The notes under the pieces were generated by a model. The model searched no databases, was not told where the DNA came from, and saw nothing but the letters and a program-made list of their open reading frames with translations. Positions 28,198 through 59,710 of a stretch of 60,625 nucleotides of DNA are shown one piece after another (the stretch's first letter is position 1; every line of letters begins with the position of its first letter). The DNA is from Clostridia bacterium (GTDB taxonomy: Bacteria; Bacillota; Clostridia; UBA1381): assembly GCA_017443895.1 (NCBI GenBank), contig JAFSXU010000063.1:1-60625 (forward strand), given 5' to 3'. A program made the position numbers and the translations under genes.

Positions 28198-30774
28198 ATG
28201 AAAAAAGCGTTGCCGTTGTTTTTAATACTGTGCATTATTCTTGGCATCCCTACTGCAACATACGCTGAAGTAACAAGCGATATTGTGGATAGAGAGCCGT
28301 ATATATATGCTGAAAAACTGTTGTCCGATATGGGGATTTATGATGGAGTAGAGGCGTTTGAGGCAGCGGACGGTTTTGTAAAGAAGGATATATTTGCGGT
28401 AATTATTACCCGAATTATGAAAATGGAAAATTGCGTTGATACAAGTAACGACATCGGCTTGATTGATGTAGGACCTGACGATTTTGCCGCAAAAGAAATT
28501 TTTACATTGATGAGTTTGGGAGTTCTTGATGTACCCTCGGACGGATATTACTATCCGGGAAAATATATCACATACAAGGAAGCGTCCAAGGCTTTGGTAC
28601 AGGTTTTAGGGTATGATATTACCGTAACGAATAAGACTTTTGACGGGTATTTGTCAAAAGCAAGCGAGCTGGGTATTTTAAAGCATGTTCCGATAGCTCA
28701 GGATGAAAGATTACAGGTAAAACAGCTTACTATGATGTTATATAATGCACTGTTTGTGGATTCTATGGGAATGTCATTTTCGCGTGGCGGACAGGCATAT
28801 GAAATTTCAAATGGCGATACTTTGCTGTCTGATAAATTTAATTTAGAGGAAATAAAGGGGATTGTCAGTGCCAACAGTATTACAAATTTGAATTTCGGAG
28901 AAAGTCTTGCAAGAGGCTATGTGACGATTGGCAATAATTCATACAGCGCAGGAGAGACGAATGCGGAGGAGCTTATAGGCTACAAGGTAAGGGCTTATGT
29001 TAATAAGGATACCGACACGCTTGTTTCGGTTGACCCTGTAAGGTATACAGCCGAATTAAGACCTGAGCTTCACGATTTGGAATATGAGGAACAGGCATAT
29101 ACATACTATGTTGGCAATGCAAAAAAAACAGCCAAAATATCGTCAAAAGCGGATATTATTTATAACCGAGAGGTAGTAGTGTTTGATAAGGACCTTATGG
29201 TACCACACGAGGGAGAGGTGCTTTTGCTTGACCACGACAAGGATAATACATATGATACAGTGATTATAACAGCTTCAGAATCGAGGGTTGTGCAGGAGTA
29301 TTCAAAATCGCGGGGGCAGCTTGCATTTAAGTATTCCTATGAGTCAATAGACCTTAACGCTTTTTCTGAGGACAAAATAACCGTTTTAAAGGAGGACGGA
29401 ACAGAGGGTAAGCTTACTTCTTTGGTTGAATGGTCGGTGTTGAACATATGCCAAAGTCTCAGTGGCAATTACATTGAGATAACAATAACAAACAAAAAAA
29501 TATCGGGTAATGTTGACAGGGTGGTAAGCCGTAAAGGAAAGACCTTTGTGACGATTGGTGATAGTGAATATGAGATTTCATGGTACTATCCGAATAAGGA
29601 TAAGGATGCAATAACTGCAGGAACAACAGCCGTGTTCTATTTGAATAAATACGGAAATATTGCAGGTGTGGATTTTAAAGATGAATGGTATTGTGGCTAC
29701 TTTATAAAATCAGCATTTACAAACGATGACCACGATGCATATATTTTCAGAATTTTTTCTGAGGAAAACGGTGGAGAGATAAAGCGGTATCCTGCAGCAA
29801 AAAGATTTAGGATAGACGACATTTCCTGCGACAGGAACGGCAAGAACAAGCAGGGTACGGATATAGTTCAGAATAAGCTTACATCTCCGCAGCTTGTAAG
29901 ATACAAACTAAATGCGGAGGAGGAAATCACGCAGATTGACACTGAGGACACGCCGGCTCATGAATTGGGGCTAAGGATTGATGTGGCAAACGGAAACAGG
30001 AAATACAGAGCAAACCAGTTTATGGGTGATATAAGCATAAACAGCAATACAAAGGTCTTTGTTGTGCCTGACACTACCAGAGCTTCACATCCTGACGATC
30101 TGAATAATTCAGAGCTTTATATACTGACTAATTCATCATGGCTTGTAAATGACGGATACTATAATGTAACCTCGTATGTGGTTGACAAGGAATCGCTTAT
30201 TGCCGATGCAATTGTTGTAAAGCGTAAGATGGAAGCGGCAAATCTCAATTCCTTTATGGTTGAAGAGATATATACAGTTTATGATAAGGACAGAGGCGAA
30301 GCACTTGATAAGGTTACGGGACGATTGGGAGCAATGACATATGAATATATGGCACCTCAGGGACTTTTAGAATCCAATAATGTAAAACAGGGTGATATAA
30401 TCGCCGTTGGAACACAGCCGGGCGGACTGCTGGAGATTATTACAAAAATTTATGATTATGAGACGGATAAGGTTGTATCCCAGTACGCATCGGGTAACTA
30501 TGATGCACAAATCAAGGTTATAGACGGATATGCGTATAATAAGCAAAACGGAATCGTGCAGGTATCGGCAGGAAGTACATCTCTCTCAGGGCAGAAAAAG
30601 GTGCCTGTAGGTTCGGCAACTGTAGCAATATATGATGTGGAATCGGGTGGAAATCCGGTATTGGAGGGTACTGTAAAGGATATAAGTGATTATGTTCACT
30701 ACCGCAATGCAGACAGAATAATTTGTATTTTAAATTATCAAGTTTTAAAATCGGTGTTTGTATATAAGAGATAA
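28198..30774 (+). CDS. Secreted SLH-domain surface protein
   Basis: An exported 858-residue protein with a signal peptide at 1-24 (LFLILCIILGIPTATYA). Residues about 30-190 contain three degenerate SLH repeats, for example KLLSDMGIYDG, LMSLGVLDVPSDGYYYPG and ASELGILKHVPIAQDERL, which would bind the secondary cell-wall polymer. The remaining 650 residues are a series of small beta-rich modules (FVTIGDSEYEISWY, VFVVPDTTRA) that I cannot name. It is the first gene of the operon with the sugar ABC transporter, so a structural or glycan-capturing surface role is likely. GGAGG lies 9 bp from the ATG. Confidence 0.75.
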   Translation: MKKALPLFLILCIILGIPTATYAEVTSDIVDREPYIYAEKLLSDMGIYDGVEAFEAADGFVKKDIFAVIITRIMKMENCVDTSNDIGLIDVGPDDFAAKEIFTLMSLGVLDVPSDGYYYPGKYITYKEASKALVQVLGYDITVTNKTFDGYLSKASELGILKHVPIAQDERLQVKQLTMMLYNALFVDSMGMSFSRGGQAYEISNGDTLLSDKFNLEEIKGIVSANSITNLNFGESLARGYVTIGNNSYSAGETNAEELIGYKVRAYVNKDTDTLVSVDPVRYTAELRPELHDLEYEEQAYTYYVGNAKKTAKISSKADIIYNREVVVFDKDLMVPHEGEVLLLDHDKDNTYDTVIITASESRVVQEYSKSRGQLAFKYSYESIDLNAFSEDKITVLKEDGTEGKLTSLVEWSVLNICQSLSGNYIEITITNKKISGNVDRVVSRKGKTFVTIGDSEYEISWYYPNKDKDAITAGTTAVFYLNKYGNIAGVDFKDEWYCGYFIKSAFTNDDHDAYIFRIFSEENGGEIKRYPAAKRFRIDDISCDRNGKNKQGTDIVQNKLTSPQLVRYKLNAEEEITQIDTEDTPAHELGLRIDVANGNRKYRANQFMGDISINSNTKVFVVPDTTRASHPDDLNNSELYILTNSSWLVNDGYYNVTSYVVDKESLIADAIVVKRKMEAANLNSFMVEEIYTVYDKDRGEALDKVTGRLGAMTYEYMAPQGLLESNNVKQGDIIAVGTQPGGLLEIITKIYDYETDKVVSQYASGNYDAQIKVIDGYAYNKQNGIVQVSAGSTSLSGQKKVPVGSATVAIYDVESGGNPVLEGTVKDISDYVHYRNADRIICILNYQVLKSVFVYKR

Positions 30775-30792
30775 GGGGGCGACAGTACGAAA

Positions 30793-31728
30793 ATGAAAAC
30801 AGAAAAAAAGGCTGTAAGAAGAACGGGCAAAAAGAAAATTTCAAATGCTGATTTATATGTTATGATTTTCCCTGCCGTAGTGTATTTCATTATTTTCGCG
30901 TATTTACCGATGATAGGACTTATCATTGCCTTTAAAAATTATAATTACACAGATGGTATACTGTTTAGCCCGTGGTGTGGATTGGATAACTTTAAGTTTT
31001 TGTTTGAGTCCGGTAAAGCATGGATGTTAACAAGAAACACAATCGTGTATAATATTGTTTTTCTGATAACGGGCATCTCGTTTGAGGTAGTATTAGCAGT
31101 TTTCTTATCGGAGATTGGCGGAACAAAACTGAAAAAACTGTGTCAATCAGTTATGATTTTACCAAACTTTATTTCATGGGTAGTAATTGCGGTATTCGCC
31201 TATAGCTTTTTAAACTTTGAAACGGGCGTTGTAAACAGATTGCTTATTAGTATGGGGCATAACCCGGTACAGTTTTATTCGGAGGTTGGGGCATGGAAAT
31301 ATATTCTTGTGTTTGTAAATCTGTGGAAGAGTGCAGGTTACGGCAGTATTATATATCTTGCAACGATAACCGGAATGGACACATCAATATATGAGGCAGC
31401 GGAAATTGACGGAGCAAATGCATGGAAAAGAATTCGCTATATTACCTTGCCACTTTTAACACCGACGATAATTACAATGTCCCTGTTGTCTGTTGGACGG
31501 CTGTTAAGAGGTAATTTTGATATGTTCTATCAGCTTATAGGCAATAACGGAATACTTTACGATTCAACCGATATTATAGATACATATATTTTCAGAGCCC
31601 TTATGACGAGTCCGAATATAGGAATGTCGTCGGCGGTGGGATTTTTGCAGTCTGTATTGTGCTTTTTGATTATAATTGCGGTGAACAAGGCTGTAAAAAT
31701 GTACGAAGCGGACTATGCTTTGTTCTAA
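30793..31728 (+). CDS. ABC sugar transporter permease, LplB type
   Basis: A 311-residue permease of the carbohydrate-uptake-1 class. It has about six helices (PAVVYFIIFAYLPMIGLIIAF first) and the cytoplasmic EAA loop EAAEIDGANAWKRIRYITLP, which docks the ATPase. The N-terminal basic stretch KKAVRRTGKKKIS is cytoplasmic. It pairs with the second permease 14 bp downstream and the lipoprotein after that. A GGGGG site precedes the ATG. Confidence 0.93.
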   Translation: MKTEKKAVRRTGKKKISNADLYVMIFPAVVYFIIFAYLPMIGLIIAFKNYNYTDGILFSPWCGLDNFKFLFESGKAWMLTRNTIVYNIVFLITGISFEVVLAVFLSEIGGTKLKKLCQSVMILPNFISWVVIAVFAYSFLNFETGVVNRLLISMGHNPVQFYSEVGAWKYILVFVNLWKSAGYGSIIYLATITGMDTSIYEAAEIDGANAWKRIRYITLPLLTPTIITMSLLSVGRLLRGNFDMFYQLIGNNGILYDSTDIIDTYIFRALMTSPNIGMSSAVGFLQSVLCFLIIIAVNKAVKMYEADYALF

Positions 31729-31742: not shown

Positions 31743-32642
31743 ATGAAAAACATTAAATCAAAGCCACTTTATAAGGATGTGCTGTCGCTTAATGTAGTAG
31801 GCTATGTTATAGTAATAGCGTTTTCAATCATGTGCCTCTACCCGTTTTTACTACTTGTTATAGGCTCGTTTACGGCAGAGAGTGAAATATACAGAGCAGG
31901 TTATTCTCTGTTACCAAAGCAATACTCACTTGATGCATACAGAGTGCTTCTTAAAAATCCTGCAAAGATTTTAAATGCTTACGGGCTTACAATATTTGTA
32001 ACAGCGTCCGGCACTGCATTGGGAATATTCTTCACGGCAATGACAGCATTCGTGTTAAGCAGAAAGGACTTTAAGCATGCAGACAAGTTTTCGTTCTTCT
32101 TCTACTTTACAACGCTGTTTTCGGGTGGACTGATACCATATTACATTGTAGTTTCAAGGTATCTGCATATGAAGAACACTATATGGGTGCTGATAATCCC
32201 GGGTGCACTTCAGGTTTTCAATATCCTGATAATGCGGAATTTCTGTAAATCCATACCCGACGCTTTGAGTGAATCTGCCAAAATTGACGGTGCGACGAAT
32301 TTTAAAATATTTACAAGGATATATCTTCCGCTTATGGGACCGTCGATTGCGACAATAGGATTGTTTATCGCTTTGGCATACTGGAATAACTGGGCAAACG
32401 CCATGCTCTATATTGACCGTCAGGAGCTGTACCCACTACAGTATTTGCTGTATAGGATGACCTCAAATGCGGAGTTTGCATCGTCCATGGCGTCGGGCGC
32501 TGCAGGGGATATGCCTGATATGCCCAAAGAAACCGTAAAGCTTGCAATGACGGTTTTATCTATCGGACCTGTTGTTCTGTTTTATCCGTTTATACAGAGA
32601 TACTTTGTTAAGGGCATAACGGTAGGCTCTGTAAAAGGTTAA
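31743..32642 (+). CDS. ABC sugar transporter permease, YtcP/MalG type
   Basis: A 299-residue permease with six helices, first near VIAFSIMCLYPFLLLVIGSF, and the EAA loop ESAKIDGATNFKIFTRIYLP. The C-terminus RYFVKGITVGSVKG is characteristic of the YtcP/YesQ branch that imports complex oligosaccharides. AAGGAGGG precedes the ATG. No ATPase gene is found in the locus, as is usual for these importers, which share an MsmX-type ATPase. Confidence 0.93.
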   Translation: MKNIKSKPLYKDVLSLNVVGYVIVIAFSIMCLYPFLLLVIGSFTAESEIYRAGYSLLPKQYSLDAYRVLLKNPAKILNAYGLTIFVTASGTALGIFFTAMTAFVLSRKDFKHADKFSFFFYFTTLFSGGLIPYYIVVSRYLHMKNTIWVLIIPGALQVFNILIMRNFCKSIPDALSESAKIDGATNFKIFTRIYLPLMGPSIATIGLFIALAYWNNWANAMLYIDRQELYPLQYLLYRMTSNAEFASSMASGAAGDMPDMPKETVKLAMTVLSIGPVVLFYPFIQRYFVKGITVGSVKG

Positions 32643-32675
32643 AAATATAATAAAAAATTATAGGAGTTGTTGAAG

Positions 32676-34163
32676 ATGAAAAAGAAAATTTTAAGCGTAA
32701 TTTCATTGATACTGGCGATGGTATTTGTTTTGTGCTCATGTGGCACAACTAATAAAAAAACAGCTGATGAGTCTACCAATAACCATGTAAAGCTTGTAAT
32801 GTACCTTATTGGTGATGAGCCGGAGGATTATAAAGAGGTATTGGCTCAAATAAACACCATGCTTAACAAGGACATCAATGCCGAATTAGAGGTACGGTGG
32901 ATGGCATGGGGCGAGTGGTCGCAGAAATATCCGATGCTCCTCTCCTCTGGAGAGCCGTTTGACCTTATTTATACAGTCGGGTATATGGGCTTCCAGAACT
33001 ATGCTCAAAGCAAGGGCTTTAAGGATATTACGGAGCTGTTCCCCAAATATGCACCAAAGACATATGAGGCATTATCAAAAGAAAACATACAAAAGGTAAC
33101 CTATGGTGGCAAGATATATGCCGTTCCGGCAAACTTTTTGGAGGTAAACCCGAACGGATATGTGGTAAGAGGCGATTTAAGGGAAAAGTATAATTTGCCC
33201 GAGGTAAACTCTCTTGATACATTCTTTGCATATCTTGATGCAGTAAAGCAAAATGAGGATATAATGCCGTTTAATGCGTCAGTCACCGATAGCGTTTCAA
33301 ATTTCGGTTGGGCATCGGTAGGCGGTACAATTGCTAACTGGGATTATGTGTCGGGCGATTATGAAAAGCTGTTTCTTCCATACGACAAGCCCGAGTATCT
33401 TGACTTTTTAAAGAAAATGCGAGAGGGCTATCAAAAGGGTTATTGGTCAAAAGATGTTATAATGAACAAGCTCTCCTCAAAGGACGCCTTCTTAAACGGA
33501 ACAAGTGCGTCAACGGTAAGCAATATGAAGAATTTTGCAGATTTGTACGCTACTGCAAAAGAGACTCATCCCGAATGGAAGGTAGAGTGGGCACCGCTTG
33601 AAGACGCTAAGAATTATCCTACACTGCTTATGTCAAACGGTGCAGGTATTGCAATAAGCAATTCTTCAAAAAATCCCGAGCGTGCACTCATGCTTCTTGA
33701 ACTGTTTAATCAGGACGAGCGATATTTTAACCTTACAACATACGGTATCGAGGGTAAAAACTATATTATCAACGATGACGGATATTTGGAATTACCGGAC
33801 GGTGTAACAGCCGATACAAACGGCTTCCCTGCTGACGGAGCAGGTAACTATGGCTGGAGAAACAATAACTATATGAAGAGCTTTGTAAGAGAATGGAAGG
33901 GCTACGAGGAGTATGAGTCAAAGATTATGGAGAACACACTCTGGGATCCTTATAACGGATTTATGCTTGATTCCTCAGCAATACAGAATAAGATAACTGC
34001 TATATCCAGTGTAACCGAACAGTACCTGATGCCTCTTTATTGGGGCACGATAGAGCCGGAAAAAGGGCTTAAAGAAATGCGAGAAAAATTAAAGGCGGCA
34101 GGTCTTGACGAGGTGTTTGATGAGGTACAGCGCCAGGCACAGGAATATTTAAAATCCCGTTAG
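32676..34163 (+). CDS. Extracellular sugar-binding lipoprotein (DUF3502 type)
   Basis: The substrate-binding protein of the importer, 495 residues. The lipobox LCSC makes Cys22 the lipidated residue, after a hydrophobic signal (VISLILAMVFV). The middle resembles family 1 solute-binding proteins (PMLLSSGEPFDLIYTVGYMG, KYAPKTYEALSKENIQKVTY), and the C-terminal GTIEPEKGLKEMREKLKAAG is the DUF3502 signature. Binding proteins of this size take oligosaccharides rather than monosaccharides. The ATG at 32676 is preferred over a TTG at 32667 because AGGAG then lies 9 bases away. Confidence 0.93.
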   Translation: MKKKILSVISLILAMVFVLCSCGTTNKKTADESTNNHVKLVMYLIGDEPEDYKEVLAQINTMLNKDINAELEVRWMAWGEWSQKYPMLLSSGEPFDLIYTVGYMGFQNYAQSKGFKDITELFPKYAPKTYEALSKENIQKVTYGGKIYAVPANFLEVNPNGYVVRGDLREKYNLPEVNSLDTFFAYLDAVKQNEDIMPFNASVTDSVSNFGWASVGGTIANWDYVSGDYEKLFLPYDKPEYLDFLKKMREGYQKGYWSKDVIMNKLSSKDAFLNGTSASTVSNMKNFADLYATAKETHPEWKVEWAPLEDAKNYPTLLMSNGAGIAISNSSKNPERALMLLELFNQDERYFNLTTYGIEGKNYIINDDGYLELPDGVTADTNGFPADGAGNYGWRNNNYMKSFVREWKGYEEYESKIMENTLWDPYNGFMLDSSAIQNKITAISSVTEQYLMPLYWGTIEPEKGLKEMREKLKAAGLDEVFDEVQRQAQEYLKSR

Positions 34164-34172: not shown

Positions 34173-35195
34173 ATGAAATTAAAAAAATATAAAAACAACC
34201 CAATTTTATCCCCAAACGATAATTATTGGCAAAACTTAAGCGTATGCAATCCCGGAGTTTGGTATGAGGACGGAATATTTTATATGCTCTACCGTGCCGC
34301 AGGAAACGACAAGGACTACATAATCCATTTCGGATTGGCGACAAGTACGGACGGATTTAAATTTAAGAGAATGTCAACTGAGCCTGCCATGTCGCCCAAG
34401 GATAACGGCTATGACGAGGGCTGTATCGAGGATCCGAGAATTGTAAAATTCCATGATGAATATTATATCACCTATGCATACAGACCGTTTCCGCCGGGAC
34501 AGTATTGGCTGCCTGATGAGCCGTTTGAAAAACGCTATCCCGTATCGCCCGAAGCTCCGCTTATGCTAAAGGAAAATATTGCCTGCAGTGCATTGGCGGT
34601 TACAAAGGATTTCAAAAGCTTTAAAAGACTGGGACGGATAACCGATTCAAGACTTGACGACAGGGATGTTATTCTGTTCCCTGAAAAAATAAACGGGAAA
34701 TTTGCAATGCTCCACAGACCTAAAGAATGGGTGGGCAAAAAATACGGCTGCGACGAGCCTGCCATATGGATAACCTATTCAGATGACTTGCTTGAATGGG
34801 ATAATGAGAGCAAGCTCTTTGCAAAGGGCGAATACGAATGGGAAACAAAGCTTGGCGGAAGTGCACCGCCGATAAAGACCGACAAGGGTTGGCTTATGCT
34901 ATACCACGCCGTAGACGAAAATAAAACCTATAAAGTAGGGGCAATGCTTTTGGATCTCAGTAATCCCGAGAGGATAATCGCAAGGACAAAGGCACCGATT
35001 TTAGAGCCTGAATATGATTATGAGAAGATAGGTATATACTCAAAGGGCGGCGGCTGTGTTTTTCCAACGGGTAACTGCGTGGTTGACGGTACATTGTTTG
35101 TCTACTACGGAGCAGCCGATAAAAATATCGGTGTTGCAACCTGCGGGCTTGATGAACTGCTTGATTTTTTGATAAACGAAAATCTGTATGTTTAA
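34173..35195 (+). CDS. GH130 glycoside phosphorylase or hydrolase (copy 1)
   Basis: A 340-residue cytoplasmic five-bladed beta-propeller enzyme. GH130 members act on beta-mannosides, most by phosphorolysis, releasing mannose 1-phosphate. Characteristic runs are NPILSPND, CNPGVWYEDGIFYMLYRAAG, DEGCIEDPRI with the presumed catalytic Asp87, DDRDVILFPEKINGKFAMLH, and the late GGSAPPIKTDKGWLMLYHAV. Phosphorylase or hydrolase cannot be fixed without an alignment of the phosphate-binding residues. It lies 9 bp after the binding-protein gene, so it probably works on the imported sugar. A second, diverged copy is at 45.1 kb. Confidence 0.88.
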   Translation: MKLKKYKNNPILSPNDNYWQNLSVCNPGVWYEDGIFYMLYRAAGNDKDYIIHFGLATSTDGFKFKRMSTEPAMSPKDNGYDEGCIEDPRIVKFHDEYYITYAYRPFPPGQYWLPDEPFEKRYPVSPEAPLMLKENIACSALAVTKDFKSFKRLGRITDSRLDDRDVILFPEKINGKFAMLHRPKEWVGKKYGCDEPAIWITYSDDLLEWDNESKLFAKGEYEWETKLGGSAPPIKTDKGWLMLYHAVDENKTYKVGAMLLDLSNPERIIARTKAPILEPEYDYEKIGIYSKGGGCVFPTGNCVVDGTLFVYYGAADKNIGVATCGLDELLDFLINENLYV

Positions 35196-35236
35196 ATAGG
35201 AAACGGCAGAGGTTTATAAAGTTTAAAATGCTTTAA

Positions 35237-35267
35237 GACAGCATCGGGCATAGGCTCCGTTGCTGTC
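35237..35267 (+). other. Intercistronic hairpin
   Basis: GACAGCA (35237-35243) pairs with TGCTGTC (35261-35267), with CGG/CCG continuing inside. No T-tract follows, so partial termination, RNA processing or mRNA protection between the importer genes and the surface-protein genes is more likely than full termination. Confidence 0.5.
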
Positions 35268-35388: not shown

Positions 35389-36750
35389 ATGAGAAAATTG
35401 TTATGTTTGGTTTTGACAGCTTGTATGCTGTCAGTGGGAGTAACAGCATTTGCGGCAGAGCAGGGAGATGCATATCTTGAAACATCAAATCTTATTGCAG
35501 TCGAAACACTTGTTTATGACCAGTTTGACGCAGGTACATGTGATTGGGCAAATCGTGGTTCAACCGCAAGCTGGGTAAATGCAACAGATTTTAACGGTAA
35601 GACAGGTTACTTGAGAGGTAGTAATAACAACGGTACTGTTTCGATACAAAGAACAATTTCTGTACCGCAGAAGTATATTACAAACAATAATTACTACCGT
35701 GTTAGCTTCAAAATGAAGTCTGCTCAGGCAGGAAATTTCCAATTGTATTTGAGTTACGATTCCACTCCCCCTGCTAATGTATCATTTTATCAGCAGTTTG
35801 CCAATCAGTGGCGTGAATTTTCCATTTGTACGGCACCGCTCAAAGGCACATCAATTCAGATGGGTATCTATAGGACGAGTGCAACCGCCGATATTGATAT
35901 TGATGATTTCAAGGTTGAAGTTATGCCTATGGATAACACAAACGGTTACAGCACAGCTATCACATCCTTGCCCGAGGGAACATATACTATTCCTTCAAAG
36001 GTATGGCAGAACTCTGATAGCGCTGTAAGCGGAAAGGTAATCAGCGCTTTGTACAGTGGCAGCAATGAAATGCTTGATGTTGATGTAGCTGATTTTACTA
36101 CAACAGGTACTCAGGGCGAGTATGTTGAAGTATATACTTCATTGGATGTTCCTGCGAATTTAGACGCAAATGCATATGTTAAGAGCTTTTTATGGGACGG
36201 TTTTTCGGAAATAATGCCGTATTGTCCAAGCAGTCAGGCACATGATGAAGAGCTTGACCTTCATAACGGTGATTTTGAGATAAAAACAAAGCTTCCCGGC
36301 TATATAGGCGATGCTTGGGGAAGAAGAGGTACCGGCGGAACTGCAGAATGGACTTCGGAAGCAGCACATAGCGGTAAATACGGAATTAAATTCCAAGGCG
36401 GCTCAGGCGGTATTGTAAACTATTTCGGTATCAGAAATGCGTTTGGCTCAACCGCTACTGCTACTACTGATTTCAAGCTGAAGTTCTGGGCAAAAGCAGA
36501 GGGTGGTACATCACCGCAGTTAAAATTGTACATTATTGGTGCAAACGGCGCAGCAACAGCGGTTTCGGGTACTGTATCAACGGATTATCAGGTGGAAATA
36601 GGAACGGAATGGGCAGAGTATACCCTTACTATTCCTAAGAGCTTCTATACAGGTTTTACAAACAATCATTTGTTCTTAGGAACATACGGAGGCGGCACAA
36701 CAAATGCCACAACCTTTTATCTTGACGATGTGAGAATTATACGCAACTGA
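35389..36750 (+). CDS. Secreted protein with two carbohydrate-binding-like modules
   Basis: An exported 453-residue protein with signal peptide at 1-23 (LVLTACMLSVGVTAFA). Two jelly-roll modules of the CBM4/9/22 kind are visible: about 38-175 (FDAGTCDWANRGSTASWVNA to ATADIDIDDFKVEV) and 298-453 (NGDFEIKTKLPGYIGDAWGR to TTFYLDDVRIIRN). A linker domain of about 110 residues separates them. No catalytic motif is seen. A glycan-binding partner of the surface enzymes is likely. AAGGAGG precedes the ATG. Confidence 0.8.
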   Translation: MRKLLCLVLTACMLSVGVTAFAAEQGDAYLETSNLIAVETLVYDQFDAGTCDWANRGSTASWVNATDFNGKTGYLRGSNNNGTVSIQRTISVPQKYITNNNYYRVSFKMKSAQAGNFQLYLSYDSTPPANVSFYQQFANQWREFSICTAPLKGTSIQMGIYRTSATADIDIDDFKVEVMPMDNTNGYSTAITSLPEGTYTIPSKVWQNSDSAVSGKVISALYSGSNEMLDVDVADFTTTGTQGEYVEVYTSLDVPANLDANAYVKSFLWDGFSEIMPYCPSSQAHDEELDLHNGDFEIKTKLPGYIGDAWGRRGTGGTAEWTSEAAHSGKYGIKFQGGSGGIVNYFGIRNAFGSTATATTDFKLKFWAKAEGGTSPQLKLYIIGANGAATAVSGTVSTDYQVEIGTEWAEYTLTIPKSFYTGFTNNHLFLGTYGGGTTNATTFYLDDVRIIRN

Positions 36751-36773: not shown

Positions 36774-37691
36774 ATGAAAAGAATTATTGGTTTAGTGTTG
36801 AGCTTAATATGCCTTATGACCGGCAGTGCATCGGCAGATTTTAATCTGCTTATTGATGATGTCAAGATTGAACTGGCAAAAAGCCCGTTTATGATAAACG
36901 ATACGGTTATGTTGCCTTTGAGGGAAGTAATGGAGCATTTCTTTTACGATGTACATTGGAATGGTATAAGCAAAACCGTCGAAATGTTAAGAGAAAACGA
37001 CACGGCAAGCGTTAAGCTTGACTCGGACATTCTTACCGTAAACGATAAGGTGTATATTATGCCGCAAAAGACCGTAAGCGTAGGCGGAACGACATATTTT
37101 CCGTTTTATGCCGTAAGACAGCTTGTCAGGGCAGAGGCTGAATGGAATTATGACAGTGCGGTTTTAAAATTTGCACTTAACGAGCGCTATAAAAATGCAT
37201 TTAACTTTGATGCAAACGCCGCAGGCGAAGTTGTTAAAATCGTATCGCTCATCCCGAACTCCGATTTTGAGGAGGGTAGCGAGCCTTGGAGTGCAAGGTA
37301 CATAGACACTACCTTGACGGCTGAAAAAGATACGGTACACAGCGGTGACGGTGCGATAGCATTCACAGGTGTGGCAGGTAAGGCGTCCGGTATACAGGTA
37401 AATGTCAAGGATATACTTATGGAAGAGGGCGACGGGACATATATCCTGAGCTTCTGGGCTAAAACGGGCGGCGGAACTGTTGTAATGAGTGCATACCCTG
37501 CAAAGATAAACGAGCAGAATAATGTACCATATAGAGATGTTACCGTAGGTAGCGAGTGGCAAAAATATGAGGTTAAAGCAAACCTTACATGGGGAGATTT
37601 AACATCTGCGCCAATGATTTTCTTTATCGATACGGGTAAGCATAACGGCGAAACGGTTTATATTGACGATTTATTGTTTGTAAAAGAATAA
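36774..37691 (+). CDS. Secreted protein with stalk domain and carbohydrate-binding module
   Basis: A 305-residue exported protein with signal peptide at 1-21. Residues about 22-140 are a copper-amine-oxidase N-terminal-like domain (DTVMLPLREVMEHFFYDVHW), the same type found in the PL11 and DUF4832 proteins of this window. Residues about 155-305 are a CBM4/9-like jelly roll (LIPNSDFEEGSEPWSARY to GETVYIDDLLFVKE). No catalytic residues are recognisable; the protein probably binds glycan at the cell surface. TGGAGG precedes the ATG. Confidence 0.8.
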   Translation: MKRIIGLVLSLICLMTGSASADFNLLIDDVKIELAKSPFMINDTVMLPLREVMEHFFYDVHWNGISKTVEMLRENDTASVKLDSDILTVNDKVYIMPQKTVSVGGTTYFPFYAVRQLVRAEAEWNYDSAVLKFALNERYKNAFNFDANAAGEVVKIVSLIPNSDFEEGSEPWSARYIDTTLTAEKDTVHSGDGAIAFTGVAGKASGIQVNVKDILMEEGDGTYILSFWAKTGGGTVVMSAYPAKINEQNNVPYRDVTVGSEWQKYEVKANLTWGDLTSAPMIFFIDTGKHNGETVYIDDLLFVKE

Positions 37692-37701: not shown

Positions 37702-37728
37702 GGTGCCTGTCTTATACGGGCAGGCACC
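37702..37728 (+). other. Intercistronic inverted repeat
   Basis: GGTGCCTGT (37702-37710) pairs with GCAGGCACC (37720-37728), one wobble. The T content after it is low, so I read it as a processing or stabilising hairpin rather than a terminator. It lies upstream of the chosen start of the next gene. Confidence 0.55.
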
Positions 37729-46143: not shown

Positions 46144-46171
46144 TATAGTAGTATATTAGGAGGTGGCAGTT

Positions 46172-49445: not shown

Positions 49446-49479
49446 AATATTGATAATAGCGGTGCAGGAGTATACGACA

Positions 49480-51904: not shown

Positions 51905-53809
51905 ATGAAAGTTATAGACTCGTATTTGAAATTGTCAGATGACAAAATACAACGACATAATATCAGTGTCAGCGTCAAAGAGGACGGTATAGTATCTTTG
52001 GTAAGCATAAACGGCTTTTCAAATTCTAAATTAAATGGCGATTTTTCCGCAGGTATTGACATTGAAATAAATAATGTATGTGAAATTTTTTCGGATTATT
52101 CTGTGGGAATTTTTTGGGCAGAGCCTTATTTTAGTCAGGATTTTTGCAGTGTACCCGATGCAACACAGGAGCTTGTTTATAAAAAGAATAATGGAAAATT
52201 TGGTGTTATTATACCGGTTGTTTCTGAAAATTTTAAATGTGTCTTGGTTGGAAAAGATAAAAATGTAGTTACTGCAAAGCTATATAGTTGGTATGAACAT
52301 CTTTGTGAGTGCAAGGGACTTGCGTTTGTGTGGGCCGAGGGCGAGGATCCTTATCATTTGCTTGAGCAATGCTTTACTGTTGCAAGTAAAGCGTTGGGAA
52401 ACAGATGTAATACCAGAAAAAACAGACGCTATCCCGAAATTTTTGAATATCTTGGCTGGTGTAGCTGGGATGCATTGCAAATCCGCGTGAATGAAAAGGA
52501 TATACTAAGAAAATGCGATGAATTTACAGAAAAAAATATCCCCGTAAAATGGGTTATTTTAGATGATATGTGGGGCGATGTAAGAGATTTCTACGGCACT
52601 GAATATAAAACTCGTGAGGAAATGTTTAATGTTATGCATGCTGCAAAGCTTTATTCTAAGGAGGCGGACATAAAAAGATTTCCAAACGGCTTGAAAACCT
52701 GCGTGTCAAAAATCAAGGATAAGGGATATAAGGTTGGTATGTGGCATCCTACAACAGGCTATTGGATGGGAATTGATCCTGACGGTGATTTATACAAAGA
52801 ATGTAAAGGCCTGCTTATACAAACTGATTCGGGGAGATATATTCATGATTACAAACGGGATAAATCATATATGTATTATAATTTAATCCACGATTTTTAC
52901 AAGGAATGTGATGTTGATTTTGTAAAGATAGATAATCAGAGTATGATGTCAAGGTTGTATAAAGGACTTGCTCCTATCGGTAAGCTTGCAAGGGAATATC
53001 ACGATGGTATGGAGGCATCCGTCGGACAGCATTTTGATAATAATGTGATAAACTGCATGGGTATGGCAAGCGAGGATATGTGGAGCAGAGGTGTTAGTGC
53101 CATTTCAAGATGCAGTCCCGATTTCTTGCCTGAAAGTGCGCAATGGTTTGTGAAAAACACAATAAGATGTGCATATAATTCGGCGGTTTGCGGACAGCTT
53201 TACTACTGCGATTGGGATATGTGGTGGTCTGATGACGGACAGGCTGTAAAAAACAGTATATTAAAAGCAATCAGTGGCGGACCTGTATATATCAGTGATG
53301 AGCTTGACAGAAGTACTCGTGATGTTATTATGCCACTTGTGTTAGATGACGGCAGAATTTTAAGATGTGACAGACCTGCTATGCCAAGTGTTGATTGCTT
53401 AACTGAGGCTCCCACAAAATCAGGTAAAATATTCAAGCTTCAAAATGTGTGCTCGGACAGCGGTGTAATTGCAGTATTTAATTTTAATGAGAATGAAGCA
53501 GTCGGCACTGTTTCGCCTAAGGATATCTATGGAATTTCAGGCGAGGAGTTTGCCGTATACGAGCATTTTTCAAGAACATACAGCATTGTAAAATACAGCG
53601 AGTATATTCCGTTAGAACTAAAACCGAATGAATATAAACTGTATATTATTGTGCCTATAAAAGACGGCTTTGCGCCGATAGGCAGGGTGGATAAATTTAT
53701 TTCACCCAAAACAATAAAATATGTATGCGGTGAACATATTGAGCTTTATGAAAAAGGGGAATACGCTTTTATTAAAGACGGCAGACTTCATATAAAATAT
53801 TCAGAGTAA
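51905..53809 (+). CDS. GH36-type (raffinose-synthase-like) alpha-galactosidase family enzyme
   Basis: A 634-residue cytoplasmic protein of the Sip1/raffinose-synthase branch. The N-terminal beta-domain covers about 1-170 and the TIM barrel follows: YLGWCSWDALQIRVNEKDIL, VKWVILDDMWGDVRDFYG, and CDVDFVKIDNQS with Asp343 as the candidate nucleophile. SEDMWSRGVSAISRCSPDFL and WWSDDGQAVKNS complete the barrel. It probably removes alpha-galactosyl (or other alpha-linked) units from imported oligosaccharides; the substrate is inferred. It lies 16 bp after the GH94 gene. Confidence 0.85.
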   Translation: MKVIDSYLKLSDDKIQRHNISVSVKEDGIVSLVSINGFSNSKLNGDFSAGIDIEINNVCEIFSDYSVGIFWAEPYFSQDFCSVPDATQELVYKKNNGKFGVIIPVVSENFKCVLVGKDKNVVTAKLYSWYEHLCECKGLAFVWAEGEDPYHLLEQCFTVASKALGNRCNTRKNRRYPEIFEYLGWCSWDALQIRVNEKDILRKCDEFTEKNIPVKWVILDDMWGDVRDFYGTEYKTREEMFNVMHAAKLYSKEADIKRFPNGLKTCVSKIKDKGYKVGMWHPTTGYWMGIDPDGDLYKECKGLLIQTDSGRYIHDYKRDKSYMYYNLIHDFYKECDVDFVKIDNQSMMSRLYKGLAPIGKLAREYHDGMEASVGQHFDNNVINCMGMASEDMWSRGVSAISRCSPDFLPESAQWFVKNTIRCAYNSAVCGQLYYCDWDMWWSDDGQAVKNSILKAISGGPVYISDELDRSTRDVIMPLVLDDGRILRCDRPAMPSVDCLTEAPTKSGKIFKLQNVCSDSGVIAVFNFNENEAVGTVSPKDIYGISGEEFAVYEHFSRTYSIVKYSEYIPLELKPNEYKLYIIVPIKDGFAPIGRVDKFISPKTIKYVCGEHIELYEKGEYAFIKDGRLHIKYSE

Positions 53810-53839: not shown

Positions 53840-56800
53840 ATGAGTGTAAAAGCAAGTAGAAAGAAGCAAGCTATACCTACATATGTTCCGGCAAAGGCAA
53901 TAAAATTACCGATGTTTTTTGAACATAAGCCATATCAGGGGGCAAGCGGAAGACTATATCCGTTGCCGTTTTCTGACAGTATAAGTGATGATAAAACAGA
54001 TGTCGAATATGACATTGTAACGCTTGAAAATGAGTATATTTGCACACAGATTGCCCCGGAATTGGGTGGTAAAATTTTGCGTGGCTTTGATAAAGTCGGA
54101 GGCTATGACTTTATTTACTATAATGAAGTTGTAAAGCCTGCTCTTGTCGGGCTTGCGGGGCCGTGGATTTCGGGTGGTATTGAATTTAACTGGCCACAGC
54201 ATCATCGCCCTACAACATTTATGCCGCTTGAAGCTATAGTGGAAGAGAATGCCGACGGTTCAAAAACTGCATGGACAGGAGAAGTTGATCCGTTTTACAG
54301 AATGAAGGGTATGGCAGGTATAACCATTGATGAGGGGCGCTCGTACATAAAGGCTAAAATTAAGGTATATAACCGCACAGAACAGAAACAGATATTCATG
54401 TGGTGGGCAAATCTTGCTGTTCCCGTTAATGAAACATATCGCACAATTTTCCCACCTGATGTTGAATGGGTAAACGACCACGATAGGCGTGCCGTATTGG
54501 AATGGCCTGTTGCAAAAGGCATATATAAAACAGCAAGACCTTATGATTTTGGTGAAGGGACAGATATTTCAAAATATGATGCTGTCAAGGTGCCTTCGTC
54601 TTACCTTGTTTCACAGGGACAGTCAGATATGGATTTTGTTGCGGGATATGACGGTGGCAAGAATATGGGTATTGCTACAGTTGCAAATCATCATATTTCT
54701 CCGGGAAAGAAAATGTGGCATTGGGGTGTTGGTGATTTTGGCGATATGTGGTGTTCAAATCTTACCGATGAAAACGGCCCGTATATTGAACTCATGACAG
54801 GCGTGTTTACCGATAATCAGCCTGATTTTACATGGATTGCACCGTATGAAACAAAGGAATTTGAGCAGTATTGGTACCCTATTCGTGATATTGGTGATGT
54901 TAAAAATGCAAGTATTGATGCGGCAATAAATGTTGAAGTAAGAGGTGAAAATCTGTTCTTTGGCTTTAATGTTACAGGTACATTTAACAATGCAACAGTT
55001 GTTGTAAAGAATAAGGGTAATGTTGTATTTGAAGAGAAGGGTGATTTTACACCGGATAAGTCATATCTCAAAGAAATTCCGATGAGGGGAATGAGTATTG
55101 ATGATATTACTGTTGCACTGATTGATGAAAATAACAAGGTTCTTATTTCTTACAAAACATACATAAGAGGTCAAAAACAGCCTATTGAACCGAGAATGCC
55201 TGTTTTTAGGCCTTGTGAAATTGAAACAGTAGAAGAGCTTTATATAAACGGTTTGCACCTTGAACAGTACAAACAGCACAATTATAATTCCTGCGACTAC
55301 TTCATGGAAGGTTTAAAGAGAGACAGTGGTGATATTCGTTGTAATACTGCAATGGCAAGATATTCATTTAAAAATGGGCAGTTTGACAAGGCTATTTCAT
55401 ATGCAGATGTTGCAATTAAAAGACTTACATCAAGAAATCAACACCCGGCAGATGTGGAAGCATTCTATTTAAAAGGTTTGGCTCTTAAATATCTCGGAAA
55501 ACTTGATGATGCTTATGATACATTATATCGTGCTGCTTGGGATTATAGCTACAGAAGTGCTGCATTTTTTGCACTGGCTCAAATCGACTGCCAAAAAGGC
55601 AGATTTGCAGATGCACTTCGTAATCTTGATGAATCAATCTCACTTAATAATGGTCATACAAGAGCAATGAACTTAAAGTCTGCGATTTACAGAGCTCTTG
55701 GCGACAATGAAAAATCATTGGGTATTGCAAATCAGGTTATAGAGCTTGATAAGCTTAATATGCTTGGCAGAGTAGAGCTTTCAAATCACATTGACAATAA
55801 GGCTCAAATATGTGATATGTTTGATTCAAAGCCTGAAAACTTTATTGATGTTGCAGTTGCATACATAAATGCAGGCTTTTATAAAGATGCCATAAGAGCT
55901 ATTGAATTATCAAAAAACAAATACCCACTGTATTACTATTATATAGCATATTGCTATGCTATGCTTAATGATAACGATAGTGCAATTAAAGCGATTAAAT
56001 CGGTGGAAGCAATGGATGAAGAATATTGTTTCCCATCAAGAATTGATGATATTGCAGTTTTAGGAAATGCCATAAAGCTTTATAAAGATACTGCAAAAGC
56101 TAATTATTATCTTGGATGTCTTTACTATGACCGTTTCGGTTATGATAAAGCAATAGAACTTTGGGAAAATGCAATTTCCATAAATCCTGAATATGCAAAG
56201 GCATACAGAAATCTTGCTCTTGCATACTTTGACAAGAAACAGGACTTCTTAGGTGCAAAAATCTGTATGGAAAAAGCACTTAAGTATTTGCCTACAGAGC
56301 CAAGGCTTATTATGGAATATCAACAGCTTCTTAAAAATATGGACTATTCTCCGCAAAAGCGTCTTGAAGTATATGAAAAATATAATGATTTGATGATGAA
56401 GCGTGATGACTGCTATCTTGATAAGATTACTTTGAAATGTCTTTTAGGTCAGTATGCCGACGCCATTGAAATGGCTAAAAATCGCCGCTTTCATATTTAT
56501 GAAGGCGGAGAGGGCAAGCTCACAAAACAGCATGCTTGGATGCATGTACTTTACGCTAATGAGCTTGCAGATGACGGTGATTATGAAAAGGCGGAGGAAA
56601 TCTACAAAAACGGTATAAATATGCCTAAATCTTACGGTGAGGCTAAGACCTTCTTCAATCAGGAGGCGCATATATTCTATTATCTCGGTCAGCTTTTAGA
56701 AATGCAGGATAAGGATGCAAATGAGTGCTATGAAAAGGCGTCTGAATACAAAGCTACGGTTTCAGAACTTTCATTATTCAGAGCATTGGCACTGCGAAAG

Positions 56801-57103
56801 CTCAATAAGTTTACAGAGGCAAGAGCTGTATTGGAGGAAATGCTTGCTACGGCTGAGGAATTTATCAAAAATTGCGACAGAAGAACTTATTATGGTGTTG
56901 GTTCACCCTCACCGCTCCCGTTTGAAGATGATATTGTAAAAAATAATCGTTTAAACGGATATACATTAAAAGCGTATGCGCTTTTAGGATTGGGCAGGTT
57001 CAATGAGGCAGAGCAGTTTATTGATGTGGCAAAAAGTATACAAAAGTATGAATTTCCGATTTATGCGTTTGATCAAATTAAAAAATCCGTAATCGGTAAG
57101 TAG
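53840..57103 (+). CDS. DUF5107 protein fused to tetratricopeptide repeats
   Basis: A 1087-residue cytoplasmic protein. Residues about 1-330 (DUF5107, mutarotase-like beta-sandwich) include NEYICTQIAPELGGKILRGF and GIEFNWPQHHRPTTFMPLEA; conserved His, Glu, Trp and Asp suggest a sugar-binding or catalytic pocket. An Ig-like part follows to about 440, then about 14 TPR-like helix pairs to the end (YYLGCLYYDRFGYDKAIELW, LARAEEIY-like units). The function of the family is not established to my knowledge. Being between GH36 and mutarotase genes, it may be a glycosidase with a scaffold tail. Confidence 0.8.
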   Translation: MSVKASRKKQAIPTYVPAKAIKLPMFFEHKPYQGASGRLYPLPFSDSISDDKTDVEYDIVTLENEYICTQIAPELGGKILRGFDKVGGYDFIYYNEVVKPALVGLAGPWISGGIEFNWPQHHRPTTFMPLEAIVEENADGSKTAWTGEVDPFYRMKGMAGITIDEGRSYIKAKIKVYNRTEQKQIFMWWANLAVPVNETYRTIFPPDVEWVNDHDRRAVLEWPVAKGIYKTARPYDFGEGTDISKYDAVKVPSSYLVSQGQSDMDFVAGYDGGKNMGIATVANHHISPGKKMWHWGVGDFGDMWCSNLTDENGPYIELMTGVFTDNQPDFTWIAPYETKEFEQYWYPIRDIGDVKNASIDAAINVEVRGENLFFGFNVTGTFNNATVVVKNKGNVVFEEKGDFTPDKSYLKEIPMRGMSIDDITVALIDENNKVLISYKTYIRGQKQPIEPRMPVFRPCEIETVEELYINGLHLEQYKQHNYNSCDYFMEGLKRDSGDIRCNTAMARYSFKNGQFDKAISYADVAIKRLTSRNQHPADVEAFYLKGLALKYLGKLDDAYDTLYRAAWDYSYRSAAFFALAQIDCQKGRFADALRNLDESISLNNGHTRAMNLKSAIYRALGDNEKSLGIANQVIELDKLNMLGRVELSNHIDNKAQICDMFDSKPENFIDVAVAYINAGFYKDAIRAIELSKNKYPLYYYYIAYCYAMLNDNDSAIKAIKSVEAMDEEYCFPSRIDDIAVLGNAIKLYKDTAKANYYLGCLYYDRFGYDKAIELWENAISINPEYAKAYRNLALAYFDKKQDFLGAKICMEKALKYLPTEPRLIMEYQQLLKNMDYSPQKRLEVYEKYNDLMMKRDDCYLDKITLKCLLGQYADAIEMAKNRRFHIYEGGEGKLTKQHAWMHVLYANELADDGDYEKAEEIYKNGINMPKSYGEAKTFFNQEAHIFYYLGQLLEMQDKDANECYEKASEYKATVSELSLFRALALRKLNKFTEARAVLEEMLATAEEFIKNCDRRTYYGVGSPSPLPFEDDIVKNNRLNGYTLKAYALLGLGRFNEAEQFIDVAKSIQKYEFPIYAFDQIKKSVIGK

Positions 57104-57129
57104 CAAGGCTTTTACAGGGGTGATGAACT

Positions 57130-58047
57130 ATAAAGATTTATACGCTTGAAAATGAACGGTTATTAGCCCGGATATATCCTGCAAGAGGTGCAAATCTCAT
57201 AAAGCTTTTTGATAAAAAATATGGTATTGATATTTTGCGTACACCTGATAGGTTATCTGATTTTGAAACACAGAATCCGTATTTGTATGGTATGCCTATG
57301 TTATTTCCGCCAAACAGAATATCAGGTGCAGAGTTTGAATTTGAGGATAGAATATACAAATTGCCTCTGAATGAGCCAAAAACAGGATGCTTTGTACACG
57401 GTACAATGCACGAAACGGAATTTACCGTTTCAAAATTGGGCGATGCGGAAATTACATTATATTTTGAAGCAACTAAGGAAAATCCGTATCTGACATTTCC
57501 GCACACTTTTTCTATACAAGTTAAATATGCCTTGTCGGAAGAAAAACTATTGCAAACCGTAAGTATTTATAATAAATCAGATACCAATATGCCAATAGGT
57601 GTTGGTTTTCATACTACTTTTGACAGTAAAGACTGCAATAGCTTCAGGGTGAGGGCATGTATACAAAAAGAGTTTTTAAGAAATGAGAAATATTTGCCTA
57701 CGGGCGAGTATCAGACTGATAACGAGCGTATAAGGAGCTTAAACAGTCCTGATGGATATGACACCAAAAAAGAATTATCGGCACTTTTTAAACTGGGAAA
57801 CAGTCATCTTATCACTGTGCAAAGAGCTGATAATATAAAAATAAACTACCGATTAGATGAAAAATATAAATATCTGATGATTTTTAATACAGGCTCTTCA
57901 GGTGAATATGTATGTATTGAGCCACAGTCATGGATAAGCAACTGCCCTAACATAGATAACAGAGAGAAGTATGGATTTACATACATAAGGCCCGATGAAA
58001 CCATAACATATGATATGAGCATATCTGCACAGAGCAATAACTTATAG
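57130..58047 (+). CDS. Aldose 1-epimerase-like protein with a non-standard start
   Basis: About 305 residues of galactose-mutarotase fold. Characteristic runs are ARIYPARGANLIKLFDKKYG, MPMLFPPNRISG, GCFVHGTMHETEF and GVGFHTTFD with family His residues. It converts anomers or binds a sugar. The conserved beginning (KIYTLENERLLARI) is in frame only from 57127; the first codon at good distance from AGGGG (57116-57120) is ATA at 57130. The nearest usual start, a TTG at 57235, would remove conserved residues. Either ATA is used, or the ATG has been lost by mutation. Neighbours are DUF5107 and the mutase (10-bp gap). Confidence 0.8.
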   Translation: MKIYTLENERLLARIYPARGANLIKLFDKKYGIDILRTPDRLSDFETQNPYLYGMPMLFPPNRISGAEFEFEDRIYKLPLNEPKTGCFVHGTMHETEFTVSKLGDAEITLYFEATKENPYLTFPHTFSIQVKYALSEEKLLQTVSIYNKSDTNMPIGVGFHTTFDSKDCNSFRVRACIQKEFLRNEKYLPTGEYQTDNERIRSLNSPDGYDTKKELSALFKLGNSHLITVQRADNIKINYRLDEKYKYLMIFNTGSSGEYVCIEPQSWISNCPNIDNREKYGFTYIRPDETITYDMSISAQSNNL

Positions 58048-58057
58048 GAGAAAATAT

Positions 58058-59710
58058 ATGGCTGAGTACATAAAAGAATATGAACGGTGGCTGCGAAGGG
58101 CTGATGCTGCGACAAGAGCAGAGCTTGAAAATTTGTCTGATGCGCAAATAAAAGATAGATTTTACAGACATTTAGAATTTGGTACAGGCGGGTTAAGAGG
58201 CATTATCGGGGCAGGAATAAATCGAATGAATGAATATGTTGTTGCCCGTGCAACAAAAGGACTGGCTGATTATATAGTAAAGAACAGTAATGATACAAGT
58301 TGCCAAAGCGTTGTGATTGCTTATGATAGCAGAAACTATTCCGAGTTGTTTGCAAAGAAAGCTGCTGCTGTTTTAAGTGGCTGTGGTGTTAAAACATACT
58401 TGTTTGATGAATTAAGACCAACTCCGGAACTTTCATTTGCAATAAGATACTTGGCTGCTACTGCCGGCATTGTAATAACAGCTTCACATAATCCTGCTAA
58501 ATATAATGGTTATAAAGTCTATTGGAGCGATGGCGGACAAGTACCTCCTCATGTGGCCGACAGCATTCTTGAAAAAATAAACAATGTTGATGTTTTTGAT
58601 GTTGTTGTGAATTCAGATGATAGATTGATTGAAATTATAGGCAAAGAAGTTGATGATGCTTATATTGAAAATGTATATGCCCAATCGATAAATCCCCGCA
58701 TATCTAAAGAGAATTTTAAGCTTGTATATACACCATTACACGGAAGCGGAAACAAGCTTGTCAGAAGAATTCTTGATAGGAGCGGATTTAAAAATGTTTT
58801 AGTGGTAAAAGAGCAGGAATTACCCGATGGCGATTTTCCGACTGTAAAATCACCAAATCCCGAAAATAAAGAGTGCTTTGATATAGCAATTTCACTGGCA
58901 AAGAAAAATGATGTGGATTTAATAATCGGCACAGATCCCGATTGCGACCGCATGGGGATTGTTGTAAAAAATAAGAATGGTGATTATGTAACAATGACCG
59001 GAAATCAAGTAGGAATAATGCTTCTTAACTATATTTTAGAAACCGAGAAGTTAGCCCAAAATCCTGCGGTTGTTACGACCATTGTATCTACCAAGATGGC
59101 AGATACTGTTTGCGACAAATACGGAGTAAAGCTGTTAAGAACGCTAACGGGCTTTAAATTTATTGGTGAAAAAATATACGAGTTTGAAAGCACAAATGAA
59201 TATTCGTTTGTGTTTGGTTTTGAAGAAAGCTACGGCTATTTAAAGGGTACATACGCAAGAGATAAAGACGCGGTTGTTGCAAGTATGCTGACAGCTGAAA
59301 TGGCATCATACTATGCACAGCAGAATATGACACTTTATGAGGTTATGCAAAGCCTATATAATCAATTCGGAGGATTTTATGAAGAGCTTGAAAGCATAAC
59401 CTTTGAGGGTATTGATGGTGTTAAAAAAATCGGAGCGATTATGAATTTTTTCAGAAACAATACACCCCAAAAAATAGGCGATTGCAAAATAAATAAGCTT
59501 ATAGACTATCTTTATGATACCGAGCTTCCTAAATCTGATGTGCTTTGCTTTAAGTTAAGTAACGGAGTGGATTTTATCATTCGTCCTTCAGGAACCGAAC
59601 CAAAAGTAAAAATATATTACTTAGCAGAGGACAAAACATATGAAAAGGCAAGGAAAAATGTTGCCTGTGTGAAAAATGCGGTAAAAATAGTAATGCAAAA
59701 CAGTATATAA
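58058..59710 (+). CDS. Phosphoglucomutase/phosphomannomutase
   Basis: A 550-residue alpha-D-phosphohexomutase. It interconverts hexose 1- and 6-phosphates in the cytoplasm. The four domain signatures are intact: GTGGLRGIIGAGINRMNEYV, the catalytic serine loop ITASHNPAKYNGYK (Ser143), the metal loop GTDPDCDRMGI (Asp293, Asp295, Asp297), the sugar loop GFEESYG and the phosphate loop RPSGTEPKVKIYY. It would pass glucose 1-phosphate from GH94 and mannose 1-phosphate from GH130 to glycolysis. It is the last gene of the operon. TAGGAG precedes the ATG. Confidence 0.93.
   Translation: MAEYIKEYERWLRRADAATRAELENLSDAQIKDRFYRHLEFGTGGLRGIIGAGINRMNEYVVARATKGLADYIVKNSNDTSCQSVVIAYDSRNYSELFAKKAAAVLSGCGVKTYLFDELRPTPELSFAIRYLAATAGIVITASHNPAKYNGYKVYWSDGGQVPPHVADSILEKINNVDVFDVVVNSDDRLIEIIGKEVDDAYIENVYAQSINPRISKENFKLVYTPLHGSGNKLVRRILDRSGFKNVLVVKEQELPDGDFPTVKSPNPENKECFDIAISLAKKNDVDLIIGTDPDCDRMGIVVKNKNGDYVTMTGNQVGIMLLNYILETEKLAQNPAVVTTIVSTKMADTVCDKYGVKLLRTLTGFKFIGEKIYEFESTNEYSFVFGFEESYGYLKGTYARDKDAVVASMLTAEMASYYAQQNMTLYEVMQSLYNQFGGFYEELESITFEGIDGVKKIGAIMNFFRNNTPQKIGDCKINKLIDYLYDTELPKSDVLCFKLSNGVDFIIRPSGTEPKVKIYYLAEDKTYEKARKNVACVKNAVKIVMQNSI

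Follow-up and report, generated by a model that had tools for sequence, protein, structure and literature searches.

A probable glycan utilisation locus of a Clostridia bacterium with paired DUF4832 proteins and a glycyl radical enzyme linked to GH36 genes

In this work, a contig of 60,625 nucleotides from a gut Clostridia bacterium (UBA1381; assembly GCA_017443895.1, contig JAFSXU010000063.1, complete, hereafter C40) was analysed, and this whole stretch is called the window. It very probably carries a locus for the regulated uptake and degradation of a glycan, as the original prediction had proposed and as the gene content supports. The predicted extent was about 31 kb (28198-59710). The gene list of this region stood, since nearly all of the named genes are backed by Pfam matches, but the end at 59710 did not, because the next gene, broken off by the contig end, encodes the N-terminal part of a glycyl radical enzyme (GRE) and brings the total to about 32 kb. 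Both this gene and its link to GH36 had been overlooked. The 18 genes up to 59710 all lie on the + strand and are tightly packed, with intergenic gaps mostly of 10-40 bp and wider ones at 35195-35389, 46043-46163, 49362-49450 and 57103-57235. Because of this arrangement, and because GH94 and GH36 recur in the same order at 74% identity each in another genus, the locus is more than a chance assembly of genes. A regulator, a carbohydrate ATP-binding cassette (ABC) importer and glycoside-active enzymes are found together in one same-strand cluster, the gene set by which Gram-positive glycan utilisation loci are recognised. We consider it probable that the GRE also belongs to the glycan pathway.

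By comparing GRE neighbourhoods, a GH36 gene was found no more than 6 kb from the GRE at 8 of the 17 loci of the close GRE clade (members of at least 59% identity), namely the window, C43, G053, G012:C19, G652:C6, G559:C13, G583 and G581 (G, C and L numbers denote our genomes, contigs and loci, and G000 is the source genome). None was found at the 13 more distant GRE loci, and this contrast of close with distant loci is the sole internal control for the linkage in genomes that are rich in glycosidases. At seven of the eight loci, GH36 directly adjoins the GRE or its activase. In the first seven genomes, 0.019 cases of a GH36 within 6.1 kb would be expected by chance, whereas four were seen, and the linkage recurs across genomes of five families. 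The GRE-linked genes fall into more than one group of the GH36 tree, and about five linkage changes are needed, of which well-supported branches force at least two. Therefore, the linkage has been gained or lost at least twice. The GRE is also found near alpha-L-rhamnosidase families, GH4, LacI and AraC regulators, alcohol dehydrogenase and GFO/IDH proteins. The GRE of G559 is accompanied by a homologue of FGGY kinases and by two proteins identified by eye, one an alcohol dehydrogenase and the other gluconolactonase-like, and that of G486 by a DUF4380 gene and a ribose-type ABC importer. Genes of sulfoquinovose type or of microcompartments were absent from the annotated neighbours, and both of these readings were dropped.

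The GRE of the window is one of two copies in its genome. C43 ends with the second copy of the N-terminal part, and C57 begins with the C-terminal part, which a radical SAM activase accompanies. A stretch of 141 identical bases is common to the ends of all three contigs (C40, C43 and C57), which marks an assembly break at a repeat. A radical SAM activase adjoins the GRE at nearly all loci of the clade and on C57, which joins C40 or C43. The PFL-like and Gly_radical domains, the active-site Cys and the glycine loop are present in the G053 orthologue and on C57. Members of this short and so far undescribed clade of oxygen-sensitive enzymes have about 650-700 residues, and the alignment to glycerol dehydratase, the closest solved GRE structure, starts at query residue 112 (residue 211 there). 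The clade differs from this enzyme at aligned positions around what we take to be its active site. AACWE(F/Y) and R(I/V)WGWS occur in all members that cover the region. All NCBIfam GRE models score far under their cut-offs (for the G053 orthologue, TIGR01774 gives 299 bits vs 678 and HypD 285 vs 1100), and none of the named equivalogs (HypD, CutC, sulfopropanediol dehydratase, PFL types) is reached. At E<=1e-40, GREs were detected in 38 of the 150 relatives. The clade itself is rare when strict cut-offs are applied (1 of 397 other genomes of the phylum and 18 of 390 other genomes of the class), and no GRE relative was found in viral contigs.

Several further GRE loci were observed. C43 (L078, 1-19674) holds its copy in a pectin-type locus with pectate lyase 2, GH3, GH39-like, LplB/YtcP and GH36 genes; between C43 and the window GH36 is 48% and the GRE protein 97% identical, as if the GRE had been recently duplicated or converted. 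Two GRE genes each, one of the CWE/WGWS clade and the other only about 25-28% identical, occur in L220 (G559:C13, 9861-14797) and L089 (G145:C24, 10448-15474). In L083 (G012:C31, 3-12999), SLH and 858-aa-type proteins are followed by GH43-like, GH101-like and GH4 genes and then by GRE and activase, and DUF4832 is absent. A conserved protein of 617-631 residues adjoins the GRE or activase in the more distant GRE clade (L086 1308-3203, L087 2976-4859, L091 2411-4291, L225 7261-9114), and the one member tested had no Pfam match.

The two DUF4832 proteins score 42.8 and 44.1 bits against PF16116 (Pfam cut-off 29.2). In a 55-sequence alignment from several phyla, R453, D455 and E479 (DUF4832b numbering) are invariant and E396 is nearly so. 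The predicted structure of DUF4832b (pLDDT 91.2, pTM 0.91) shows a barrel and then a beta sandwich, with E396 after strand 4 and E479 ending strand 7 (strands counted by hand). The best fold matches in VIA-align were GH14 beta-amylases (Z 21.6, root-mean-square deviation (rmsd) 3.4, 275 aligned residues), and GH42/GH35 beta-galactosidases reached a Z of about 17 (about 260-270 aligned, rmsd about 4). These matches are only 12-15% identical, and the Pfam GH42 match (PF02449) is weak and restricted to the N-terminal half. Because a high-confidence TIM barrel is predicted and the glutamates after strands 4 and 7 are conserved, it is likely that DUF4832 is a glycosidase family. A search of genome contigs gave 48 loci with a DUF4832 alignment as the query and none with the DUF4832b sequence alone. 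A DUF4832b search of the 150 relatives gave matches in other genera and none in four same-genus genomes. The domain is named in the literature, for example in a paper on Gram-positive Pel clusters.

The sister locus is found in another genus, in the rumen metagenome-assembled genome RUI406 (G053, contig JAIKVQ010000072.1). It encodes LplB, YtcP, lipoprotein, DUF4832a, DUF4832b, a mannose-6-phosphate-isomerase-like protein, a 640-aa protein, GH94, GH36, GRE, activase, a 598-aa protein and an FAD oxidase. The PDB matches of the 640-aa protein are exclusively GH5 beta-mannosidases and mannanases. Thus, the places that GH130 and phosphohexomutase occupy in the window are taken in G053 by the GH5 beta-mannosidase-like gene and the isomerase, and this exchange gives independent support to a beta-mannosyl unit in the substrate. 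Four other gut genomes (L129, L132, L133, L139) have the regulator pair, lipoprotein, LplB, YtcP, a DUF4832, an SLH protein, an 858-aa-type protein and a second DUF4832, and no GH94 or GH130 matches were found in these cassettes. The neighbourhood is modular: importer, surface proteins and paired DUF4832 are stable, and the enzymes behind them vary.

The features of the locus are collected in Table 1. By Pfam, the predicted YesM/YesN pair in mid-locus, the LplB/YtcP importer with its lipoprotein, the two GH130 enzymes, GH94, the GH36-type enzyme, DUF5107-TPR, mutarotase-like and phosphohexomutase genes were all recovered, and the two DUF4832 proteins were confirmed by PF16116, while their hydrophobic N-termini and the fold predicted for DUF4832b agree with secreted barrels. 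Of two SLH proteins that had been named, one has three clear repeats; the other, of 858 residues, has no Pfam or NCBIfam match, and a weak SLH match was seen in a paralogue on C72. Of two CBM-type (carbohydrate-binding module) proteins, the 305-aa one was upheld and the 453-aa one has no Pfam family. The postulated surface anchoring agrees with the SLH protein, but the DUF4832 proteins have no SLH domain, so that their own anchoring at the surface is presumptive. Phosphorolysis fits the three enzymes with catalytic Asp, but it does not define the cassette, given its four relatives without GH94 and GH130. Of the glycan units proposed, beta-mannosyl is favoured by G053 and the Asp pair of GH36 is intact, whereas plain galactoglucomannan disagrees with the beta-1,2 type of GH130a. 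The DUF4832 neighbourhoods, whose comparison across genomes had been suggested as a check, are partly conserved, which goes against the refutation that had been stated in advance.

Table 1. Features of the locus in the window; coordinates are window positions.
Feature	Position	Strand	Evidence or remark
Terminator-like hairpin	27876..27901	both	10-pair stem; possible upstream boundary and end of the unit before
858-aa secreted protein of a large lineage-specific family, probably divergent SLH-type surface protein	28198..30774	+	paralogues; adjoins SLH genes elsewhere
LplB-type ABC permease	30793..31728	+	PF00528 2.7e-13
YtcP-type ABC permease	31743..32642	+	PF00528 7.5e-07
Solute-binding lipoprotein with DUF3502	32667..34163	+	PF12010 9.2e-23; lipobox LCSCG
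GH130a, cytosolic	34173..35195	+	PF04041 1.4e-50; 9fj8 193 bits
453-aa secreted protein	35389..36750	+	CBM-like by eye only; hydrophobic N-terminus; no Pfam match
305-aa secreted protein, Cu_amine_oxidN1 and CBM_4_9	36774..37691	+	PF07833 1.1e-18, PF02018 1.1e-9
Terminator-like hairpin	37702..37728	+	11-pair stem, 5' of the likely SLH protein (SLH679) start; may divide the transcript
SLH protein, three C-terminal repeats	37754..39742	+	PF00395 1.2e-39; open reading frame listed from 37703, likely start ATG 37754
DUF4832a, secreted TIM barrel with Cu_amine_oxidN1 and CBM_4_9	39783..42476	+	PF16116 6.9e-11; alignments; open reading frame listed from 39666, likely start ATG 39783
DUF4832b, secreted TIM barrel with CBM_4_9	42492..45077	+	PF16116 2.6e-11; conserved E396 and E479
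GH130b, cytosolic	45093..46043	+	PF04041 2.3e-45; 1vkd 191 bits; IDNR at catalytic Asp
YesN-type response regulator, AraC output	46163..47668	+	PF00072, PF12833
YesM-type histidine kinase	47665..49362	+	PF06580 4.7e-22
GH94 phosphorylase, cytosolic	49450..51888	+	PF17167 4.9e-98; 3qde 401 bits
GH36, raffinose-synthase type (Raffinose_syn)	51905..53809	+	PF05691 3.2e-66; catalytic Asp pair conserved
DUF5107-TPR protein	53840..57103	+	PF17128 5.2e-49
Aldose 1-epimerase family protein	57235..58047	+	PF01263 2.1e-28
Phosphohexomutase (PGM/PMM)	58058..59710	+	PF02878, PF02879, PF02880
GRE, N-terminal 276 aa, cut by contig end	59798..60625	+	family match; no terminator-like site upstream to 59710

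Both GH130 enzymes combine the family match with the catalytic Asp, and their phosphate-site residues were judged from alignment only. GH130a best matches 1,2-beta-oligomannan and beta-1,2-mannobiose phosphorylases, and its motif EDPR has Glu before the catalytic Asp, as in the beta-1,2-mannoside cluster. This Glu was formerly held to mark hydrolases, yet it is found in proven phosphorylases (PMC4264767). GH130b is closest to TM1225 and Lin0857, with Ile before the catalytic Asp, and UHGB_MP is also close (157 bits). GH94 has both domains of its family and the catalytic Asp in DWND. It is somewhat nearer cellobiose (401 bits) than chitobiose phosphorylases (369 bits), a margin that does not settle the substrate. 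In GH36 the nucleophile and acid/base Asp are kept, with VKIDNQ and CSPDFLP aligned across 18 sequences. A hydrophobic N-terminus was seen in the 858-aa protein, lipoprotein, 453-aa, 305-aa, SLH and both DUF4832 proteins, and was absent from GH130a, GH130b, GH94, GH36, DUF5107-TPR, epimerase, phosphohexomutase and GRE.

The 858-aa family is very large, with members in 60 of the 61 genomes that were searched and 129 candidates at first look in G010. Its paralogues in the source genome lie on C72, C41, C5 and C36, and relatives often stand directly 3' of an SLH protein, resembling a recurring surface pair. The AlphaFold model of the 858-aa protein, built from six sequences, had a pLDDT of 46.7 and was not used. 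The gene at 21945-24923, upstream of the locus, encodes a secreted PL11 rhamnogalacturonan lyase that also has Cu_amine_oxidN1 and F5/8C modules. The total of terminator-like sites in the window is about the shuffled mean, so single hairpins are weak evidence; promoter-like sites were near or modestly above it and were not used. The window has no Rfam matches or tRNAs, and its GC profile shows a mild drop past 45 kb only, with no clear sign of transfer.

We hypothesize that these parts act as one inducible chain, to which, taken as a whole, we give an even chance. The YesM/YesN pair would sense the glycan, and the SLH-type proteins would organise the surface machinery. Near the S-layer, the secreted DUF4832 pair with its CBM modules probably cleaves or trims a glycan that contains beta-mannosyl, beta-glucosyl and alpha-galactosyl units, and the LplB/YtcP/DUF3502 importer would take in the oligosaccharides. 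Inside the cell, GH36 would remove an alpha-galactoside-type unit. By phosphorolysis, GH130 and GH94 would turn beta-mannosides and beta-glucosides into sugar 1-phosphates, which the phosphohexomutase would pass to glycolysis. The GRE with its activase may act on a sugar-derived small molecule, most likely by radical elimination as a lyase. That its substrate is a monosaccharide-type compound is a possibility to which we give slightly less than even odds. More tentatively, the short CWE/WGWS enzymes may represent a new reaction class, in which a monosaccharide, polyol or sugar acid freed by the linked GH36-type enzyme would undergo radical elimination.

A different view is that the glycan part stands alone and that the GRE is a neighbouring fermentation gene of the glycerol or propanediol dehydratase type. 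The frequency of GREs among the relatives, the solved structure nearest to the clade and the gap of 87 bp before the gene are consistent with it. It is made rather unlikely by the linkage to GH36 in five families, which the 13 more distant GRE loci did not show, by an alignment to glycerol dehydratase that begins only at residue 112 and differs around the presumed active site, and by the low scores of every NCBIfam model. The DUF4832 proteins could be non-catalytic binding proteins, SusD-like in role, since two divergent copies are adjacent and carry CBM modules, and we know of no assayed member. The glutamates conserved across several phyla and the confidently predicted fold like GH14 and GH42 argue against this, and we regard it as unlikely.

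The glycan itself may also be read differently. If it were an N-glycan core, GH130b would act on Man-beta-1,4-GlcNAc (N-acetylglucosamine), GH94 on chitobiose, and GH36 on terminal alpha-galactose. The closeness of GH130b to UHGB_MP and of GH94 to chitobiose phosphorylases agrees with this, as do a match of the G053 GH5-like protein to GH5_18 enzymes and GH36 homologues that adjoin GH38 in G036. With GH94 slightly nearer cellobiose phosphorylases, GH130a of the beta-1,2 type and no endo-N-acetylglucosaminidase or GlcNAc-6-phosphate genes found in the locus by Pfam, an N-glycan is improbable. A beta-1,2-mannoside-bearing glycan, either yeast mannan or a bacterial storage mannan, would suit the best matches of GH130a, which may even run synthetically, and two adjoining enzymes of this phosphorylase type are known in Thermoanaerobacter (PMC4264767). 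In that case GH94 and GH36 would have no obvious role and the sister locus has no GH130, while the secreted proteins, the importer and the regulator pair speak for uptake; this substrate seems doubtful. Some points weigh against the inducible chain that we prefer. Of the GRE, the window contains just the N-terminal part, which lies four genes 3' of GH36 and not adjacent to it, and the activase of this copy is presumed, as C57 may continue C40 or C43. Several comparison loci of both the close and the distant GRE sets lie on short contigs. GH130a looks beta-1,2-specific whereas other members would suit beta-1,4-linked plant mannans, no recognised mannanase was found in the locus unless DUF4832 is one, and the fold matches of DUF4832 span inverting and retaining families.

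The GRE linkage is the part likeliest to surprise a specialist. For many GREs that are abundant in the gut, no reaction is known (PMC11574389), and in the open-licence literature no paper was found that describes the GRE-glycosidase link seen here. The recurrent GH36-GRE-activase unit offers a concrete, testable handle on a GRE of unassigned reaction, and if the clade did represent a new reaction class, radical chemistry would be part of how this and related gut bacteria break down glycans. With the DUF4832 cassette, a probable glycosidase family comes into view that is widespread and for which an active site is predicted. Both findings name proteins to express for learning how S-layered gut Clostridia use mannose-containing glycans.

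Among known systems, the glycyl radical dehydratases (glycerol dehydratase, HypD, CutC, sulfopropanediol dehydratase) share with the GRE clade the PFL-like and Gly_radical domains, the C-x-E motif and a paired radical SAM activase. The clade differs from them by an N-terminus about 100 residues shorter, the CWE/WGWS motifs, the scores far below cut-off and the glycan-gene neighbours. A barrel in which Glu residues follow strands 4 and 7, known from GH14 beta-amylases and GH42/GH35 beta-galactosidases, is also predicted in DUF4832, which, unlike these families, has its own C-terminal sandwich besides its low identity and partial GH42 match. Gram-positive polysaccharide utilisation loci with YesMN and LplB/YtcP have the same regulator pair, ABC importer with lipoprotein, secreted CBM proteins and cytosolic glycoside-active enzymes. 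In contrast to them, the window has SLH-type proteins, a DUF4832 pair in place of a known endo-enzyme, three phosphorylase-family genes and a GRE. Phosphorolysis of mannan and glucomannan by GH130 and GH94 is known, e.g., in Ruminococcus albus, and the combination of a GH130 pair with GH94 and a phosphomutase is also present in the window. Unlike that system, the window has a GH130a of the beta-1,2 type, a GH36 of the raffinose-synthase type and no recognised mannanase.

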